Shown here: positions 17,315 through 51,762 of the stretch, piece by piece
Layout: each line of letters starts with the position of its first letter
Numbering within the stretch: the stretch's first letter is position 1
Origin: Thiogranum sp.
GTDB taxonomy: Bacteria; Pseudomonadota; Gammaproteobacteria; DSM-19610
Direction: 5' to 3'
Assembly (NCBI GenBank): GCA_030148915.1
Contig: JASBSN010000005.1
Span: 1-55,702 of the forward strand
DNA: 55,702 bases
The notes under the pieces: model-generated
The model's input: only the letters and a program-made list of their open reading frames with translations
The model's database searches: none
What the model was told of the DNA's origin: nothing
Made by a program: the position numbers and the translations under genes

Positions 17315-18793
17315 ATGGAACCCTCCGGCCCGACTTCGGGCGTCCTACCACCATCGACCCGAGCAACCGGTCCGACCGCTCCGCCCCCCCTACAGGTCGG
17401 GCAATTACTGCAAGCCACGGTGGTGGAAAACACCGCCGGCAAGCTGTTGCTGGCCTTAAGTCATCGGCAGCTCAGTGCCGAGTCTTCACTGCCGTTCAAG
17501 CCGGGGCAGGTTCTGACCCTGGAGGTGCGCAGCCTGGGCGAGCAGCCGGTGCTGCGAGTGATCGCCGCCTTGCAGGAGTCGGCCACCGCCAGCGCCATCC
17601 GCACGCTACTGCCCCGCTATGGCGCCAGCACACCCCTACTGGCCAGCGTGGCGCAGCTGGCGCAGGCGCCGGCTGGCAGCCTGCCGCCGGCACTCAATGC
17701 GGTTATCCGTACACTGGTGCGGGAGTTGCCGGATCGTAGCCAGCTCAGCAGCGCTGAAGGGGTGAAAAACGCTATCGGGCGCTCCGGCAGCTTCCTCGAA
17801 CAGAACCTGGTGCAGGCGTCCTCGCGGTTGCCCACACCCGCCGTTCTGGCCGGCGACTTCAAAGCCGCGCTGCTGCGCCTGCAAGGGCTGTTGCGCGAAC
17901 TGCCGGCCGAGAACACCCCGGCGCCCACCGCCCGACGGCCGCCCGCCGCCCCACCTGGCGGCTCGCCTTCGGCACCCGCCACCGCGGCTACCCCGACCGC
18001 CCAGACACCCGCCCGCGAACCACCCACAGCAGCAGCCCACGCCGGCGGCGTGCCGCGCAAAGAGCCTACGGGGGCGAGCGCGCCGCTACCACAAGCCGTG
18101 CAACGCGCCCTTCGCGCGGCCGGCAATGCCTTGTCACGCCCGGTTTCGAGCCCGGTTTCGAGCCCAGGGCCGAGCGCAGCGCCAAGCCTCGGCACCGGCG
18201 CCTCAGCCGGCACCGTGCCGGGCGCCGCCGGGCAGCCGGCGCCGCCGCTCCCGGGGGGGGTGCCGACTGCGCAGGTGCCGGTGGTGGCGCCCGGCCTCGA
18301 TGCGCTGGGTCGCCTGGGCCAGTTGCGCGCGGATCTGTTACAGCAAACCGAGGCGGCGCTGACGCGCATTCATCTCAACCAAATCGCCAGTCTGGCGCGT
18401 GACGGCGAGCCGCGGTTGGCCGAGTGGTTATTCGATCTGCCGATCCGCCGAGGCGGGGACATCGATCTGTGGTCGGCGCGCCTGTACCGCGACGGCAAAG
18501 GCAATGACGAAAAGCCCGAACAGACAGCGCCTTCGTGGAGTGTGCAGCTGGCCTTCGATTTGCCCGGGCTGGGCCCGCTACAGGCGCAGATCAACTTGCG
18601 CGGTGAACAGGTCTCGACCCATTTCCGCGCCGCGCGCCAGGAGACGTTGCCGCTACTGCACGCTCATCTGCACGAGCTGCGCAGGGCGATGCTCGCCGTC
18701 GGTCTGGAAGTCGGCGAGATTAATTGCCGTTTCGGCAGTCTCCAGGACAGCGACAGATCCTCCCCCGGCCCGCTGATCAACGAACGGGCATGA
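17315..18793 (+). CDS. Second FliK-like protein with flagellar hook-length control C-terminal domain
   Basis: A 492-residue protein whose C-terminal 120 residues resemble the Flg_hook domain of FliK (LPGLGPLQAQINLRGEQVST, then HLHELRRAMLAVGLEVGEIN). The N-terminal 180 residues are a separate region (LQVGQLLQATVVENTAGKLL), and the middle is a Pro/Ala/Ser-rich linker. It is not the canonical fliK, which is at 41137-42375. The gene stands apart on the plus strand and ends in an ATGA overlap with an FlhB-C-like gene, recalling Bacillus ylqG-ylqH. That pairing suggests a substrate-specificity or export-related role, but no function is proven. The linker region contains a G8 tract and a 12-bp tandem repeat. 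Confidence 0.85.
   Translation: MEPSGPTSGVLPPSTRATGPTAPPPLQVGQLLQATVVENTAGKLLLALSHRQLSAESSLPFKPGQVLTLEVRSLGEQPVLRVIAALQESATASAIRTLLPRYGASTPLLASVAQLAQAPAGSLPPALNAVIRTLVRELPDRSQLSSAEGVKNAIGRSGSFLEQNLVQASSRLPTPAVLAGDFKAALLRLQGLLRELPAENTPAPTARRPPAAPPGGSPSAPATAATPTAQTPAREPPTAAAHAGGVPRKEPTGASAPLPQAVQRALRAAGNALSRPVSSPVSSPGPSAAPSLGTGASAGTVPGAAGQPAPPLPGGVPTAQVPVVAPGLDALGRLGQLRADLLQQTEAALTRIHLNQIASLARDGEPRLAEWLFDLPIRRGGDIDLWSARLYRDGKGNDEKPEQTAPSWSVQLAFDLPGLGPLQAQINLRGEQVSTHFRAARQETLPLLHAHLHELRRAMLAVGLEVGEINCRFGSLQDSDRSSPGPLINERA
18139..18162 (+). repeat. 12-bp tandem repeat (two copies) in the FliK-like linker
   Basis: CCCGGTTTCGAG occurs twice back to back, encoding PVSSPVSS inside the disordered Pro/Ser-rich part of the FliK-like protein. 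Being a multiple of three, copy changes would keep the frame. Confidence 0.85.
18253..18260 (+). repeat. G8 homopolymer tract inside the FliK-like gene
   Basis: Eight consecutive G residues lie within the coding sequence (Pro-Gly-Gly-Val). A C7 tract also occurs near the 5' end of the same gene at 17394-17400. Such tracts can slip during replication and shift the frame. Confidence 0.8.
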
Positions 18794-37990: not shown

Positions 37991-38545
37991 CTATTGCATG
38001 ACAAAGCTGGTGAAAAAAACATTTTCAACCGCCGCGTTGCCGGTTTCCTGCTTCATCACTTTCTGGATTTCGGCCAGCGCCTGCGCGCGCAACTTTTCCT
38101 TGCCCTCGCGGGTGTTGAGCGTGACGGGGTCCTGGTTGCTGAACAGCATGACCAGATTGTTGCGAATGGCGGGTCGCTGCTCTTTGATGCGCTCCACCAT
38201 ATCGGCGTCGCGGGTGCCGACTTCGATAGTGATCTGCAAAAAGCGCACATCGCTATCGCCGCTGAAATTCACCACAAACGGCGGATCCATCGGCACATAG
38301 TTGAGCGGAGTCTTGGGTTTGGCCGCCTGGGCCTTCGCGGCACCTTTGTCGCCCGAGGCGCTCGGGTCTGCCGCCGGCGCGTCATCACCCGAGAGCATGC
38401 CGGTAAGCCACAGGGTGGCACCACCGGAAACGCCGAGGAACAACACCGCCGCACCGATAATTATGAATAATTTGGACTTGGATTTGGGCGCCTGTGCGCC
38501 GTCGTCCTCGTCATTACCCAAATCCAAGTCGTCTTCCCGTGCCAT
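37991..38545 (-). CDS. fliL: Flagellar basal body-associated protein FliL
   Basis: FliL encircles and stabilises the stator units. From ATG 38545, with GGGAG five bases upstream, it has 184 residues; a GTG two codons earlier also fits. An acidic N-terminus is followed by a membrane segment (KLFIIIGAAVLFLGVSGGAT), an Ala/Lys-rich spacer and a periplasmic stomatin-like domain (YVPMDPPFVVNFSGDSDVRF, ending VFFTSFVMQ). It is the first gene of fliLMNOPQR-flhB, with a sigma-54 promoter motif 37 bases upstream. Confidence 0.95.
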   Translation of the reverse strand: MAREDDLDLGNDEDDGAQAPKSKSKLFIIIGAAVLFLGVSGGATLWLTGMLSGDDAPAADPSASGDKGAAKAQAAKPKTPLNYVPMDPPFVVNFSGDSDVRFLQITIEVGTRDADMVERIKEQRPAIRNNLVMLFSNQDPVTLNTREGKEKLRAQALAEIQKVMKQETGNAAVENVFFTSFVMQ

Positions 38546-38581
38546 GTGCACTCCCGCTCTTTGTCTACTGCAAGGGGGAAA

Positions 38582-38596
38582 GCAAGACGTATGCCA
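38582..38596 (-). promoter_or_regulatory. Putative sigma-54 promoter of the fliL operon
   Basis: On the minus strand TGGCAT-ACGTC-TTGC matches the sigma-54 consensus TGGCAC-N5-TTGC at nine of ten positions and is followed by a T-rich stretch (TTTCCC). It lies in the gap between the GGDEF/EAL gene and fliL, placing a start site about 25 bases before the fliL ATG. Confidence 0.75.
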
Positions 38597-38723: not shown

Positions 38724-40991
38724 TTAGTGGGTGCTAAGCGACAGCCACTCACCGAAGCCCTTATTCGGCAGCGGTTTGCTGATATGGAAACCCTGCAGGA
38801 GATCGCAACCCAGTTCCAGTAGCATCAGGCGGATCGCCTCTTCCTCGACGCCCTCGGCAACCACCAGGCACTCAAGGTTGTGTCCCAATTCGATAATCGA
38901 ACGCACCACAGCGGCATCGCGCGGACTGCTTAGCATGTCTTCGAGAAAAGAACGGTCGATTTTCAACGTATCGATGGGCAGACGTTTCAAGTAGGACAAG
39001 GACGAATAACCGGTGCCGAAATCGTCAATCGCGATCGACACACCGAGTTGGCTCAGACTGTCCAGCGTGCGCGCACCGGCCTCCAGGTCAGTCATCAGCA
39101 TGCCTTCGGTAATTTCAATTTCCAGGCTGGAGCCGTCCAGACCGGCGTTTTTCAGCGCCTGCCTGATCCGCCCGACCAGCCCGGGCGACTGGAACGAGCG
39201 CGCCGAGACATTGACCGAAACCGGCATCGGCGTGCCGTCCATCGACCAGAGCTTGCTCTGCTCCAGGGCGGTATTCAACACCCAGTCGGTAATCGGCGCA
39301 ATCATGCCCAACTGCTCGGCGATGGGAATGAAGCGCTTGGGCAAAACCAGCCCCTGCTGCGGGTGCTGCCAGCGCAGCAGCGCCTCGGCGCCACGGATCT
39401 GCCCGCTGGCGATGTCGATTTTGGGCTGGTAGTGCAGCTCAAACTCCTCGCGCTCCAAAGCGCCGTGCAGTTGGCCGGAGAACTGCAAGTGCTCGCTGGC
39501 CGAGGGCTGCTTGGCATCCGATTGGTAAAACAGATAGGGTGCGGAGTTCCACTTGGCGCGGTACATGGCGCTGTCGGCGTGGCTGGCCAGCGTGTGCGCA
39601 TCCTCGCCGTGCTGTGGATAGACCGAAATACCGATCGCGCTACTGAGACACAGCTCGCGTTGCTGGTAGGTGAACGGCGCGCTCAGCGCCGCGATCACTT
39701 CGCCGGCGACGCGTTCCACGGCGCGTTCGGCGTCCTGCACAAACGGCAGGATGATGCCGAATTCATCGCTACCCAGGCGCGCCAGCGTGTCGGTATCGCG
39801 CAGCAGCTTCTGCAGGCGTCCGGCAATCTGTCGCAACAGATCGTCGCCGGCCTGATGGCCGAGCGAATCGTTGTACATTTTAAATTGATTGATATCCAGC
39901 ACCATCACCGCCACGGCCGCGCCCGGGTTGCGCCGCGCCACCGCCAGCGCCGAACCCAGACGGTCGTACCAGAGCGCGCGGTTCACCAGACCGGTGATTT
40001 CGTCCTGCGTGGAGAGCTGCTCCAAGCGCTCGCGATCGCTGTGCCCGTCGGTGACATCTTCCATCAGACAATGCACCCGCAGCACCCGTCCGCGACGGTT
40101 GGCGGTCGGGTAAAACGCCATGCGGAACCAGCGTCCGGCGGGCGCCTCATCCTCACCGGGCTGCATCAGGACTTCGAGTTGAACCGCTTCGTTGTCGATG
40201 ACTTGCTGCCAGGCGGTAAGCACGCGTTCCCGCTCGCTGCCCTGAATACGATAGAAACACGGAATCGGCGCCTCGAGCTCGCGCTGACAGAACGCCTGTG
40301 TGCCCGGGCTGGCGTAGCTGATGCTGTTGTTTTCGATGTCCACCGTCCACAACAACTGTGGGATGTTGCCGAGAATTTCGCTGGCCAGGAACTGCTCGGC
40401 GCCGAGTTCGTCGCGCTGGTCGGTCAACTGATCGACGGCGGCTCGCCAGTAGGCCTCGGTCATCACCGCCAGATCGCGAAAAATCATTTTGATGAGCGCC
40501 GTTTCGACCGCTTCGCGGTCGCCGGTGTCGATCTGCGGATCGCTCGCCACCAGGTCCTGCAGGTGGGCGAGGAACAACCGGTAAGCACCGAGCATCCACA
40601 CCGGTTTGACGCCGCGCTTATAGTGGGAGCGGCCGATCGCCTCCGAGCGCCGGGTGGCGGCCTCGTCGATCTCACCGCTCAGCAACTCCAGTTTATGCGC
40701 CAGCATGGAGCGCACCAGCTCGCCGACGTTGCCGCCGTCGCGCTCGAACGCGTACATCACATCGGCTATATCCGGGTTGTCGAACAGATAATTGTAGCTG
40801 GTTTCAGCGAATCCGGCCGCGCCCTGTACCAGGGCCGCCCGGTACCGCCGGAGCAGTCGGGTGTCGGCCTCACTCAGCTGCAGAACGTAATTAAATTCCT
40901 TGCCGGCGATCGGGGTGGAAGTGCGCTTTCTGACTCCTGACCGCCGTCGCTCCTCTTTGGGACGCCCGCGCTTTTTCGGGGGTGTTGGCAT
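38724..40991 (-). CDS. Globin-coupled PAS/GGDEF/EAL c-di-GMP protein with AT-hook-like N-terminus
   Basis: A 755-residue predicted c-di-GMP enzyme (from ATG 40991; GTG 41003 adds four residues). The N-terminus is strongly basic with the AT-hook-like KKRGRPKEERRR (about 6-17). Residues 35-150 resemble a globin-coupled sensor domain, with His123 in AIGRSHYKRGVKPVWMLGAY at the place of the haem-proximal histidine. A PAS-like domain follows (about 200-315). The GGDEF domain has GSDEF (407-411) and an intact RxxD inhibitory site (RDTD) five residues before it. The EAL domain (E536, GAEALLRW) keeps DDFGTGYSSL, AEGVEE and QGFHISKPL. Phosphodiesterase activity is likely; cyclase activity is uncertain. 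It sits between fliK and fliL on the flagellar strand. The function in motility is inferred from location. Confidence 0.85.
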   Translation of the reverse strand: MPTPPKKRGRPKEERRRSGVRKRTSTPIAGKEFNYVLQLSEADTRLLRRYRAALVQGAAGFAETSYNYLFDNPDIADVMYAFERDGGNVGELVRSMLAHKLELLSGEIDEAATRRSEAIGRSHYKRGVKPVWMLGAYRLFLAHLQDLVASDPQIDTGDREAVETALIKMIFRDLAVMTEAYWRAAVDQLTDQRDELGAEQFLASEILGNIPQLLWTVDIENNSISYASPGTQAFCQRELEAPIPCFYRIQGSERERVLTAWQQVIDNEAVQLEVLMQPGEDEAPAGRWFRMAFYPTANRRGRVLRVHCLMEDVTDGHSDRERLEQLSTQDEITGLVNRALWYDRLGSALAVARRNPGAAVAVMVLDINQFKMYNDSLGHQAGDDLLRQIAGRLQKLLRDTDTLARLGSDEFGIILPFVQDAERAVERVAGEVIAALSAPFTYQQRELCLSSAIGISVYPQHGEDAHTLASHADSAMYRAKWNSAPYLFYQSDAKQPSASEHLQFSGQLHGALEREEFELHYQPKIDIASGQIRGAEALLRWQHPQQGLVLPKRFIPIAEQLGMIAPITDWVLNTALEQSKLWSMDGTPMPVSVNVSARSFQSPGLVGRIRQALKNAGLDGSSLEIEITEGMLMTDLEAGARTLDSLSQLGVSIAIDDFGTGYSSLSYLKRLPIDTLKIDRSFLEDMLSSPRDAAVVRSIIELGHNLECLVVAEGVEEEAIRLMLLELGCDLLQGFHISKPLPNKGFGEWLSLSTH

Positions 40992-41016
40992 CGCCACATC
41001 CACTCGTTGTTATAGT

Positions 41017-41037
41017 TGTGCTATGAAAGGTAGCACA
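41017..41037. promoter_or_regulatory. 21-bp palindrome upstream of the globin-GGDEF-EAL gene
   Basis: TGTGCTA (41017-41023) and TAGCACA (41031-41037) form perfect 7-bp arms around 7 bases. It ends 13 bases before the GTG at 41003 and lies next to a TATAAC -10-like box (minus strand, 41014-41009), so it could be an operator covering the core promoter. No match to FNR or LexA sites is apparent. Confidence 0.45.
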
Positions 41038-41136
41038 GCAAGATCCCTAAGTACAATCAGCCTGTTAGGAGATATTCAGGCTCTCGCTCAGGGGCCTGCG
41101 CGGGGGCTCTGAAGCAACCGGTTGATTTGCCACCAG

Positions 41137-42375
41137 TTAGGCAAACAGGTCCAATCGACCCGTACCCAGGAAGCTCGCCACGGGCGTCTGATGCACGCTC
41201 TGCGCCGTTCCCTCGTCCACTTCTACTCCGGGCCCCCACCGGGGGGTAGCCGTGTCCTGGTCGGTGCGCTGCTGCCCGGCAAAGGAGCCGCCGGAAATAT
41301 CCACATTGATCAGCTGCACGCCGGAGGCCTCGAACATGTCGCGCAACCGCGGCAACGCGGCTTCCAAGGCGTCGCGGACCACGGCGTGGTGGGCGTTGAA
41401 CTGCACCGAGGCCTGATCGTTGTGCATCTGGATGCGCACTTCCATCGGCCCCAGGTTGGCCGGGTTCAATTTGACCTGAGCGCCCTGCACTTTCTGGCTG
41501 GCCAGCCACTGGATGCGCTCCCCCAGCGCCTGGTCCCAGTCGGCTTGGCCGAACGGGGTGTTGACGGCCACCGCCGCGGCACTCGGGACAGCGATCGCCG
41601 AGCTCGCACTCGATGGTACCGTTGGCCCGCTCGCTAGCGTGGTCTCGGCAGAGGGGGCTCGCGGGGCTTCGGGTGACAGGCGTTTGATCGCAGCCATCAG
41701 CGTGGCGAGTTCCGCGCCGCGCTCCTGGGTCGCGTTGGGCGCGGCGGGCGGCAGCTGCGGGACTAGGCCCGCCTCCGCATTGACCGGTCGCGCGTCTCTG
41801 TTGGCGGTAGGGTCTACCGGGGCACTCGGCGCATCCCCCGTCTGGCCGGAGGCTTTCTGCGTCGCCACGAGCTGGGACAGTTGGCGCAGCACCCGCTCGT
41901 CGCCGGCCTTGTCCATCGACCCGGTGGCCCGTTCCAGCGCGCTGACGATTTCAGCCGGCAACAACGCGCGCAATTGCGGTTGTTCCTGCACCATGGGTTG
42001 CAGCACCAACGCCAATTGCTCGGCCGGCGGCGCTTCGGTTGCCTCTCGGGCGAGCAGTTTCAAACCGGCGGTGAGCCGTTCCAGGAACTGTTTCAGATCG
42101 CTATCGCCGGCCGCGACCTTGTCCAAGGTCTGTTGCAGCAGGGGCAACAATTTGCCGCTCTGCGGCAAACTTTGCAGACCGGCAAGCAGGTCCTGGCCAT
42201 CCGTGGAAGGTGTCGGCTGGTCCGAGAGGTGCGGCGATAGCGCCGAATAAGCGTCCTCCAGGGCCCCGCCAAAAACCGAAGAGTCATTGCTATCTAACTG
42301 TGTTATATCACTATTAACCGCTGTTTCCGGCAGTGCTACACCTGTCGTCGGCAATCCTGATAAGGGTGGATTCAT
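41137..42375 (-). CDS. fliK: Flagellar hook-length control protein FliK
   Basis: FliK is the secreted molecular ruler that triggers FlhB to switch substrates. The 412-residue protein has a long low-complexity N-terminal part (Ala/Pro/Ser/Gln-rich) and the conserved Flg_hook domain near the C-terminus (VKLNPANLGPMEVRIQMHND, then EAALPRLRDMFEASGVQL). It follows fliJ by 60 bases, a gap with a near-perfect sigma-54 motif, so it can be expressed separately from fliEFGHIJ. This is the canonical FliK by place; a second FliK-like protein lies at 17315-18793. Confidence 0.94.
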   Translation of the reverse strand: MNPPLSGLPTTGVALPETAVNSDITQLDSNDSSVFGGALEDAYSALSPHLSDQPTPSTDGQDLLAGLQSLPQSGKLLPLLQQTLDKVAAGDSDLKQFLERLTAGLKLLAREATEAPPAEQLALVLQPMVQEQPQLRALLPAEIVSALERATGSMDKAGDERVLRQLSQLVATQKASGQTGDAPSAPVDPTANRDARPVNAEAGLVPQLPPAAPNATQERGAELATLMAAIKRLSPEAPRAPSAETTLASGPTVPSSASSAIAVPSAAAVAVNTPFGQADWDQALGERIQWLASQKVQGAQVKLNPANLGPMEVRIQMHNDQASVQFNAHHAVVRDALEAALPRLRDMFEASGVQLINVDISGGSFAGQQRTDQDTATPRWGPGVEVDEGTAQSVHQTPVASFLGTGRLDLFA

Positions 42376-50238: not shown

Positions 50239-51687
50239 TCAAACTCCCGTCGCAGGATCCGAGCGGTGCAAACCGTATTTGCGCAATTTTTCCACCAGCG
50301 TCGTCCGACGCATACCCAGTCGCTTGGCCGCCTGGGCAACGACGCCGTTGGCATCGTCCAGCGCCTGCTTGATAAATCCCACTTCGAGATTGCTGAGATG
50401 CTCTTTGAGGTCCAGACCGTCGCGCGGCAGACGCGGCTCGGCGTCCAGTTGATACTGCATGGGCTGCGCGCTGTTGAGCAACTCGTCGCCGAAGTGCGTG
50501 CTTTGCGCAACAACCGTATCGGTCTGAAATTTGTCGGGCAGATCACCCACATCGACCACCCCAAACGGGTAAAGGATGGCCACACGCTCAATCAGATTGG
50601 CCAGTTCGCGGACATTGCCGGGCCAGTTGTACTGACACAAGGCCAGAATCGCCGCCTGGGTGAGGCGTACCGAGCCGCGCTTTTCGTGTTCGATGCGGCG
50701 GATCAGTTCATTGACCAGCAGCGGAATGTCTTCGACGCGCTCACACAACGGCGGCATTTCAATCGGGAACACATTCAACCGGTAGAACAGGTCCTCGCGG
50801 AATTTGCCAAGCGTGATGGCCTCTTCGAGGTTACGGTGAGTGGCGGCGATAATGCGCACATCGGCCTGGATACTTTTGTTACTGCCGACGCGCTCGAAGG
50901 TGCGCTCCTGCAGCACACGCAGCAGTTTGACCTGCATATTGAGGCTCATATCACCGATTTCGTCGAGAAACAGCGTGCCCTGTTCGGCCAGCTCGAAGCG
51001 GCCCTGCCGGGCGCTGATGGCGCCGGTGAAGGCCCCTTTCTCATGCCCGAAAAGCTCTGATTCCAGCAGATCGCTGGGAATCGCCCCGCAGTTGACCGGA
51101 ACGAACGCCTTGTCGCGACGGTTGGAGTAATAGTGCAGGTTACGCGCCACCACTTCCTTGCCGGTACCTGATTCGCCGAGTATCAGCACGTTGGCCTCGG
51201 AGTTGGCCACCTGCTGAATCATTTTGCGCACCAGCTGCACCGCGCGGCTGGTACCGACGAGACTGCGGAACAGATCAACAGGCCGTTGATGGCGACCGTC
51301 GGACTGGGTTTCGCGGTACACCTCGGCCTGGTGCAAGGCGCTGGTCAACTGCGTGTAGTGGGCCGGCAGTTCCACCCGGCCGAGAATGCACGAGGCCGGT
51401 TCAATGGCCACGGTCAGTTCCTTGTTCTTTTCCGAAAGCAGGAAAATCGGCAGATGTTCGTCCAGGTCGTGCACTTCCTTGAGTTGCTTCTGCAACGCCT
51501 TGTCGGTGGTACAGGTGCCCACCAGCACCGCCAGGATATCGTCGACATCCTCTATACCGGCCTTCCAATGGGCACAATCCTGCGTCAGCACCGGCTCGTA
51601 GTTGATAAAGCGCAGCACCGACTCGAGTTCGCGGCCTCGTTCGGCATCGGCTTCTATTATGAGTACCTTGGGCTCGCTGGTTGCCAC
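50239..51687 (-). CDS. fleQ: Master flagellar transcription activator FleQ (FlrA)
   Basis: FleQ activates early sigma-54 flagellar promoters and, in Pseudomonas, senses c-di-GMP. The GTG at 51687 is chosen because GAGGGGGA lies seven bases upstream (482 residues); a TTG at 51732 is less likely. It has an atypical receiver-like domain (1-125), an AAA+ domain with Walker A GESGTGKEVVARNL and GAFTGA at 218-223, and a Fis-type helix-turn-helix (AAKRLGMRRTTLVEKLRKYG). c-di-GMP-binding residues known from P. aeruginosa FleQ are all present: LFRS (139-142), Arg182-Asn183, and ExxxR (Glu327, Arg331), each offset by three. Confidence 0.96.
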   Translation of the reverse strand: MATSEPKVLIIEADAERGRELESVLRFINYEPVLTQDCAHWKAGIEDVDDILAVLVGTCTTDKALQKQLKEVHDLDEHLPIFLLSEKNKELTVAIEPASCILGRVELPAHYTQLTSALHQAEVYRETQSDGRHQRPVDLFRSLVGTSRAVQLVRKMIQQVANSEANVLILGESGTGKEVVARNLHYYSNRRDKAFVPVNCGAIPSDLLESELFGHEKGAFTGAISARQGRFELAEQGTLFLDEIGDMSLNMQVKLLRVLQERTFERVGSNKSIQADVRIIAATHRNLEEAITLGKFREDLFYRLNVFPIEMPPLCERVEDIPLLVNELIRRIEHEKRGSVRLTQAAILALCQYNWPGNVRELANLIERVAILYPFGVVDVGDLPDKFQTDTVVAQSTHFGDELLNSAQPMQYQLDAEPRLPRDGLDLKEHLSNLEVGFIKQALDDANGVVAQAAKRLGMRRTTLVEKLRKYGLHRSDPATGV

Positions 51688-51762
51688 CTGACTGTCCCCC
51701 TCGGATTTTGATCTGGTCGGTTTGCAGGACAATACGGCCTGAACCGGGCTCGAGTTCTTTAC

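Follow-up and report, generated by a model that had tools for sequence, protein, structure and literature searches.

Bacteria in oxygen gradients must match their swimming to oxygen, and the locus described here raises the question of what a globin-coupled c-di-GMP enzyme does inside a flagellar gene cluster. The window, the whole stretch of 55,702 nucleotides of Thiogranum sp. DNA that was analysed, carries an open reading frame at 38724..41003 (-) that joins a protoglobin domain to GGDEF and EAL domains. Its neighbours on the same strand, identified by Pfam, are fliK upstream (41137..42375, (-)) and fliL downstream (37991..38551, (-)); beyond them lie fliJ, fliI, fliH and fliG on one side and fliM and fliN on the other. 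With moderate confidence, we read the product as a gas-sensing, mainly c-di-GMP-degrading globin-coupled sensor of a DcpG-like kind that adjusts motility. The protein has the features of a globin-coupled sensor that could be tested, and what makes it chiefly interesting is that it has stayed among the flagellar genes: a globin-coupled c-di-GMP enzyme retained in a flagellar locus throughout a family is a direct candidate for the link between oxygen and swimming, and the position of the gene makes the oxygen-motility prediction easy to test. A full-text literature search, returning titles and the openings of abstracts and with most subscription journals outside its coverage, yielded no report of a flagellar gene cluster that contains a globin-coupled sensor, and a search on Thiogranum and flagella gave nothing useful among the titles matched.

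The frame encodes 759 amino acids if read from the GTG at 41003, and 755 from the ATG at 40991 (38724..40991, (-)). The ATG is common to the 18 family orthologues (which begin MP..., or MS... in G002), while the other in-frame starts vary. Because a TATAAC block lies 13-17 bases before it in 16 of the 18, and because the G018 orthologue has no other in-frame start within the stretch listed, the ATG appears to be the likeliest start, and the GTG a possible but less likely one. In GTG numbering, Pfam assigned Protoglobin (PF11563) to residues 40-188 (E 7.4e-19; 40440..40886, (-)), GGDEF to residues 332-485 (E 7.3e-44; 39549..40010, (-)) and EAL to residues 511-744 (E 4.4e-78; 38772..39473, (-)), matches that are far beyond chance. 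A weak PAS_4 match (residues 257-319 in the same numbering, E 0.0012) fell below the gathering score; together with fold matches to PAS and LOV domains it marks a PAS-like domain at model residues 212-312 (40056..40358, (-)). The translation carries KKRGRPKEERRR, the motif GSDEF (39759-39773, (-)) and, five residues ahead of it, the RxxD I-site (39789-39800, (-)). All 12 of the EAL positions checked in a table of 43 homologues, which we take to be the catalytic and signature residues, are present. The initial annotation had described a globin-like sensor, a PAS-like domain, GSDEF with RxxD and a full EAL domain, and Pfam, alignment and fold matches bear this out.

The window protein departs from the canonical GG(D/E)EF active site and retains the RxxD inhibitory site. 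Among the 16 family rows that cover the enzyme part, the motif is GGDEF in 11, GSDEF in four (the window protein, G015, G016 and G009) and DGDDF in one (G002); outside the family GSDEF was also found in G350, a truncated copy (a 483-aa frame without the EAL part). RxxD and the 12 EAL positions are kept in 16/16 of these family rows. Since serine stands in for the second glycine of GGDEF, the net output in the GSDEF clade would most likely be breakdown of c-di-GMP by the intact EAL domain, and relatives with an intact GGDEF may be bifunctional. The substitution is no proof of a dead cyclase, because PMC4395868 presents PFLU5960 as an 'imperfect GSDEF' cyclase whose mutant is presumed to be activated.

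The closest published system, likened by description, is DcpG of Paenibacillus dendritiformis, which also combines globin, GGDEF and EAL and has dual activity; the Thiogranum protein differs in having GSDEF and in sitting between fliK and fliL. According to extracts of PMC10882959, DcpG is phosphodiesterase-active in the Fe(II)-O2 form and acts as a diguanylate cyclase with NO, and GCS-HD-GYP of Vibrio fluvialis is a globin-coupled c-di-GMP phosphodiesterase whose Fe(II)-O2 form is active; in the latter an HD-GYP domain stands where the Thiogranum protein has EAL. By analogy with these two proteins, the Fe(II)-O2 form would degrade c-di-GMP and so favour swimming. The literature search returned no paper on a globin-coupled GGDEF-EAL protein with heme and phosphodiesterase activity. 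The sign would be reversed if the protein were mainly an O2-activated cyclase like DosC or BpeGReg, with a minor or regulatory EAL domain, so that gas raised c-di-GMP and stopped swimming. The characterised globin-coupled cyclases are indeed activated by O2 (extracts of PMC8846402 and PMC9600515), which counts against our preferred reading, and the kept RxxD and the canonical GGDEF of most family rows fit a cyclase as well. However, the window clade has GSDEF, every checked EAL position is present, and replacement of the same glycine by alanine in EcGReg (G375A) abolished function in vivo (PMC5549716). We therefore consider a cyclase unlikely, while giving it some weight.

In the reading that we prefer, the protein would work in the cytoplasm as a globin-coupled sensor reserved for motility. 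Its haem, with His123 as ligand, would take up O2 or a different gas, for example NO, and the long helix that ends the globin (model residues 156-196) would relay the change to the GGDEF-EAL part by way of the PAS-like domain. Lowered c-di-GMP would in turn free FleQ and lift the other brakes that c-di-GMP puts on flagellar genes and on swimming. The window encodes a FleQ at 50239..51732 (-), which phmmer matched to solved FleQ (8p53) along its length with an E value of 1.3e-169; it is likely a c-di-GMP-responsive flagellar master regulator, and its LFRS motif and a nearby arginine are presumably the c-di-GMP binding positions.

The claimed place between fliK and fliL stood up in the window and proved to be kept through the family. 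Named relatives are metagenome-assembled genomes of Thiogranum, Thiohalobacter and Gammaproteobacteria. The sensor part was matched in 18 of 20 family genomes, its own included. In one of the two others (G001) the enzyme part lies at a contig end beside fliL, and the second (G011, 82% complete) gave no FliM match. FliK is directly upstream in 17/18 family loci, with a contig end in G017. FliL is next downstream in 12/18, including G014 and G004 after 1.1 and 2.7 kb; on this side the contig ends in five further loci, and G008, whose assembly contains N-joined pieces, lacks FliL there. Two other orders show the same fliK-gene-fliL arrangement, and one more shows its fliL side. In the second order (f122), 9 of 11 genomes match and FliK is upstream in 9/9; FliL is adjacent in six and follows after 8.1 and 14.7 kb in two, with the fliK side kept, and the contig of G390 stops 1.7 kb downstream, FliM being on another contig. 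Two f122 genomes (G385 and G386) have FliM and no match to the globin gene, which counts against our preferred reading. The third order (f83) is represented by a single genome with both neighbours. In the fourth (f113), 4 of 6 genomes match, and the two that do not also have no FliM match; FliL is downstream in three, and on the fliK side the contig ends in three. The remaining f113 genome, G395, keeps the gene with a fliL-like remnant and a chemoreceptor-like ORF on the fliK side, and has no FliM match, which again counts against the reading. In the two long f122 intervals (L129 of G391, 14.7 kb; L130 of G392, 8.1 kb) other genes separate the globin gene from fliL, and those of G392 include ATP-binding ORFs, as judged by eye. 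Degenerate-looking and possibly decaying copies occupy the fliK-fliL slot at L122 (G389, strongly diverged) and L088 (G350).

In a class-wide draw, 24 of 369 genomes matched: nine had flagellar neighbours (for G012 and G247, on a single side), 12 did not (G171 being seen on one side), and three had distant homologues only. The concern that orthologues might lie mostly away from flagellar genes thus fails within the family and is about half true across the class. FliM was matched among the 12 genomes with non-flagellar placement at 64-71% identity in seven and at 44% in one, with no match in four; since eight of the 12 match FliM, a flagellated genome can carry the globin gene away from its flagellar locus. 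From the table of 43 rows (with the distant G284, G280 and G266 and the contig-cut G171 dropped), a tree of 41 rows was built, leaving out also the truncated G013 and G006. The flagellar label, with G395 scored as non-flagellar despite its fliL-like remnant, needs four changes on this tree vs 10.5 in shuffles, so the flagellar-placed members are not one clade; parts of the tree are uncertain owing to long branches, those of G389 and G101 among them. A search of plasmids gave one partial match (31.5%), in Acidithiobacillus caldus, and in a paper on that species (PMC4331095) the word 'globin' is confined to the reference list.

Upstream of the gene, the family conserves a block of the form TGATTGTA...TGTGnTAnC...ACAAYTATAACAA (41007..41059, (-)), with exact ACAAYTATAACAA in 15 of the 18 orthologues. 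The block was found once in the window. In three of six genomes a long pattern made from it matched just once, at the block itself, and it matched nowhere else; G000, G010 and G003, where spacing or letters differ, were missed. A sigma-70 consensus scan upstream of the gene found nothing, so the block can be called a candidate promoter or operator only tentatively; terminator scans were empty as well. In the window the block contains TGTGCTA-N7-TAGCACA. Between the globin gene and fliL lies a sigma-54-type site, TGGCATACGTCTTGC (38582..38596, (-)). The pattern is weak alone in the window (one match vs 0.54 expected by chance, with one mismatch allowed), yet TGGCAY-N5-TTGC precedes fliL in 10/10 family loci where it directly adjoins the globin gene, and in the other three orders in 11/11 loci with fliL, or its remnant, immediately downstream. 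A looser scan pattern gave two matches in 15 other loci that have no downstream fliL, neither of them TGGCAY-N5-TTGC. The globin gene probably has its own promoter, distinct from the sigma-54-type site belonging to the fliL operon, in which case production of the sensor may not depend on the flagellar cascade.

This arrangement, an upstream block of its own and a separate sigma-54-type site ahead of fliL, would also suit a general c-di-GMP enzyme whose gene merely lies between two flagellar operons and has no motility-specific role, as would the homologues located elsewhere in other lineages and the retention of the gene in G395. Against this, the gene occupies the same slot in three orders, the genomes G011, G344 and G131 that lack it also lack a FliM match, and the fliK side is kept even where 8.1 and 14.7 kb have come between the gene and fliL; we judge such an explanation improbable. 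That a globin c-di-GMP enzyme has been retained beside flagellar genes in several gammaproteobacterial lineages suggests that oxygen, or a gas like it, controls swimming.

The globin region was aligned by phmmer with AfGcHK (4.3e-07) and HemAT (8.3e-05), the nearest solved globin domains by sequence, with histidine on histidine. The candidate proximal histidine of the initial annotation is thereby upheld: it is residue 123 from the ATG (127 from the GTG; codon 40623-40625, (-)). Tyr66 and Ser95-Met96 of the protoglobin domain align with the distal positions. A full-length AlphaFold model was set aside (pLDDT 56.9, with the GGDEF part unusable), and the fold search was therefore restricted to a model of residues 1-326, built with 9 sequences and with a mean pLDDT of 63.6; block means were about 60-89 across the globin, and values fell below 50 over most of residues 1-36. 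Foldseek against the PDB gave AfGcHK, HemAT, a Geobacter GCS and a Thermosynechococcus globin domain as best matches, followed by PAS and LOV domains. VIA-align placed these globins together with BpeGReg and DosC at ranks 1-13 (Z 16.2 to 13.9), with protoglobins and other globins from Z 12.9 downward, the Azotobacter GCS domain among them at 11.3. Domains of globin-coupled sensors thus head both lists, and the model of residues 1-326 confirms the globin-coupled-sensor fold. The protein accordingly joins an N-terminal protoglobin, with proximal histidine and distal tyrosine, to a signalling output. AfGcHK and HemAT are alike in the globin domain and differ in output, which is a histidine kinase or a chemoreceptor there and GGDEF-EAL here. 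DosC/YddV (EcGReg) and BpeGReg share the globin fold, distal tyrosine and I-site, and have middle and cyclase domains only (PMC5549716, in extract), whereas the Thiogranum protein has PAS-like and EAL domains.

A haem-free protoglobin fold that senses a non-gas signal, as in stressosome proteins, would fit the proximal tyrosine of G019, which counts against gas sensing, and of G350 (the copy without an EAL part), the leucine of G281 and the tryptophan of G389; stressosome-type proteins also match the globin region in sequence or fold. Since 39 of 43 homologues keep the proximal histidine, and 41 have tyrosine at the Tyr66 position (phenylalanine in two), we hold a haem-free sensor to be very unlikely.

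The N-terminal tail (residues 1-29, net charge +9; 40905..40991, (-)) is basic and, by its low model confidence, disordered. The core motif of an AT-hook is RGRP flanked by basic residues, and the window protein has RGRP in such a setting at residues 8-11 (40959-40970, (-)). The initial annotation had proposed from this an AT-hook-like tail that could anchor the enzyme at AT-rich flagellar promoters, naming loss of the motif in close homologues beforehand as grounds for abandoning the idea. RGRP occurs in 4 of 43 homologues, which are four of the 18 family orthologues, form one clade in the tree and are the same four family members that carry GSDEF; RGR with another residue occurs in five further homologues. 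The 14 other family orthologues have RGRS, RGRL, RRRT, SARS, KGRQ, RRQP and others in its place. The net charge of the tail ranges from +5 to +9 across 18/18 family members; among the 25 remaining homologues it is -2 to +6. Its dN/dS is 0.15-0.54 (seven pairs, few sites), vs at most 0.14 in other regions where computable. Taken together, these values indicate that the basic charge persists and the hook does not. The tail is so basic that 2.1% of its shuffles contain RGRP, which makes the motif alone weak evidence. Pfam at E up to 1 gave no AT_hook in the protein, the short model making this a weak test, and the literature search returned no paper joining AT-hook, c-di-GMP and GGDEF. The AT-hook was therefore rejected as a conserved feature, and tethering to promoters finds no support among the homologues.

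The tail looks like an ordinary basic, floppy one, a disordered appendage under mild constraint that would make at most non-specific electrostatic contacts. A bolder version, which we consider rather improbable, is that a gas-sensing c-di-GMP phosphodiesterase is an ancient fixture of the flagellar locus across several gammaproteobacterial orders, its charge-conserved tail placing the enzyme at the flagellar pole, membrane or nucleoid, where oxygen would set local c-di-GMP for the motor and FleQ. That RGRP is a working AT-hook giving FleQ a local c-di-GMP signal is scarcely credible: the core stands in a basic context in the window protein and three near relatives and the tail is basic throughout the family, but the motif is missing from most homologues, arises in some shuffles, goes without a Pfam match in that weak test and lies in the loosest-constrained part of the protein.

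Two further ORFs were noted. The window holds, at 17315-18793 (+) and far from fliK, a second protein that matches a FliK-type Flg_hook domain (1.6e-17). Elsewhere in the same genome (L131, G000:C102, 965-2170 (-)), a 401-aa ORF combines Sigma54_DBD (6.8e-08) with a weak GIY-YIG match below the gathering score, an unusual pairing, and adjoins a second protoglobin-PAS ORF that is cut by the contig end.
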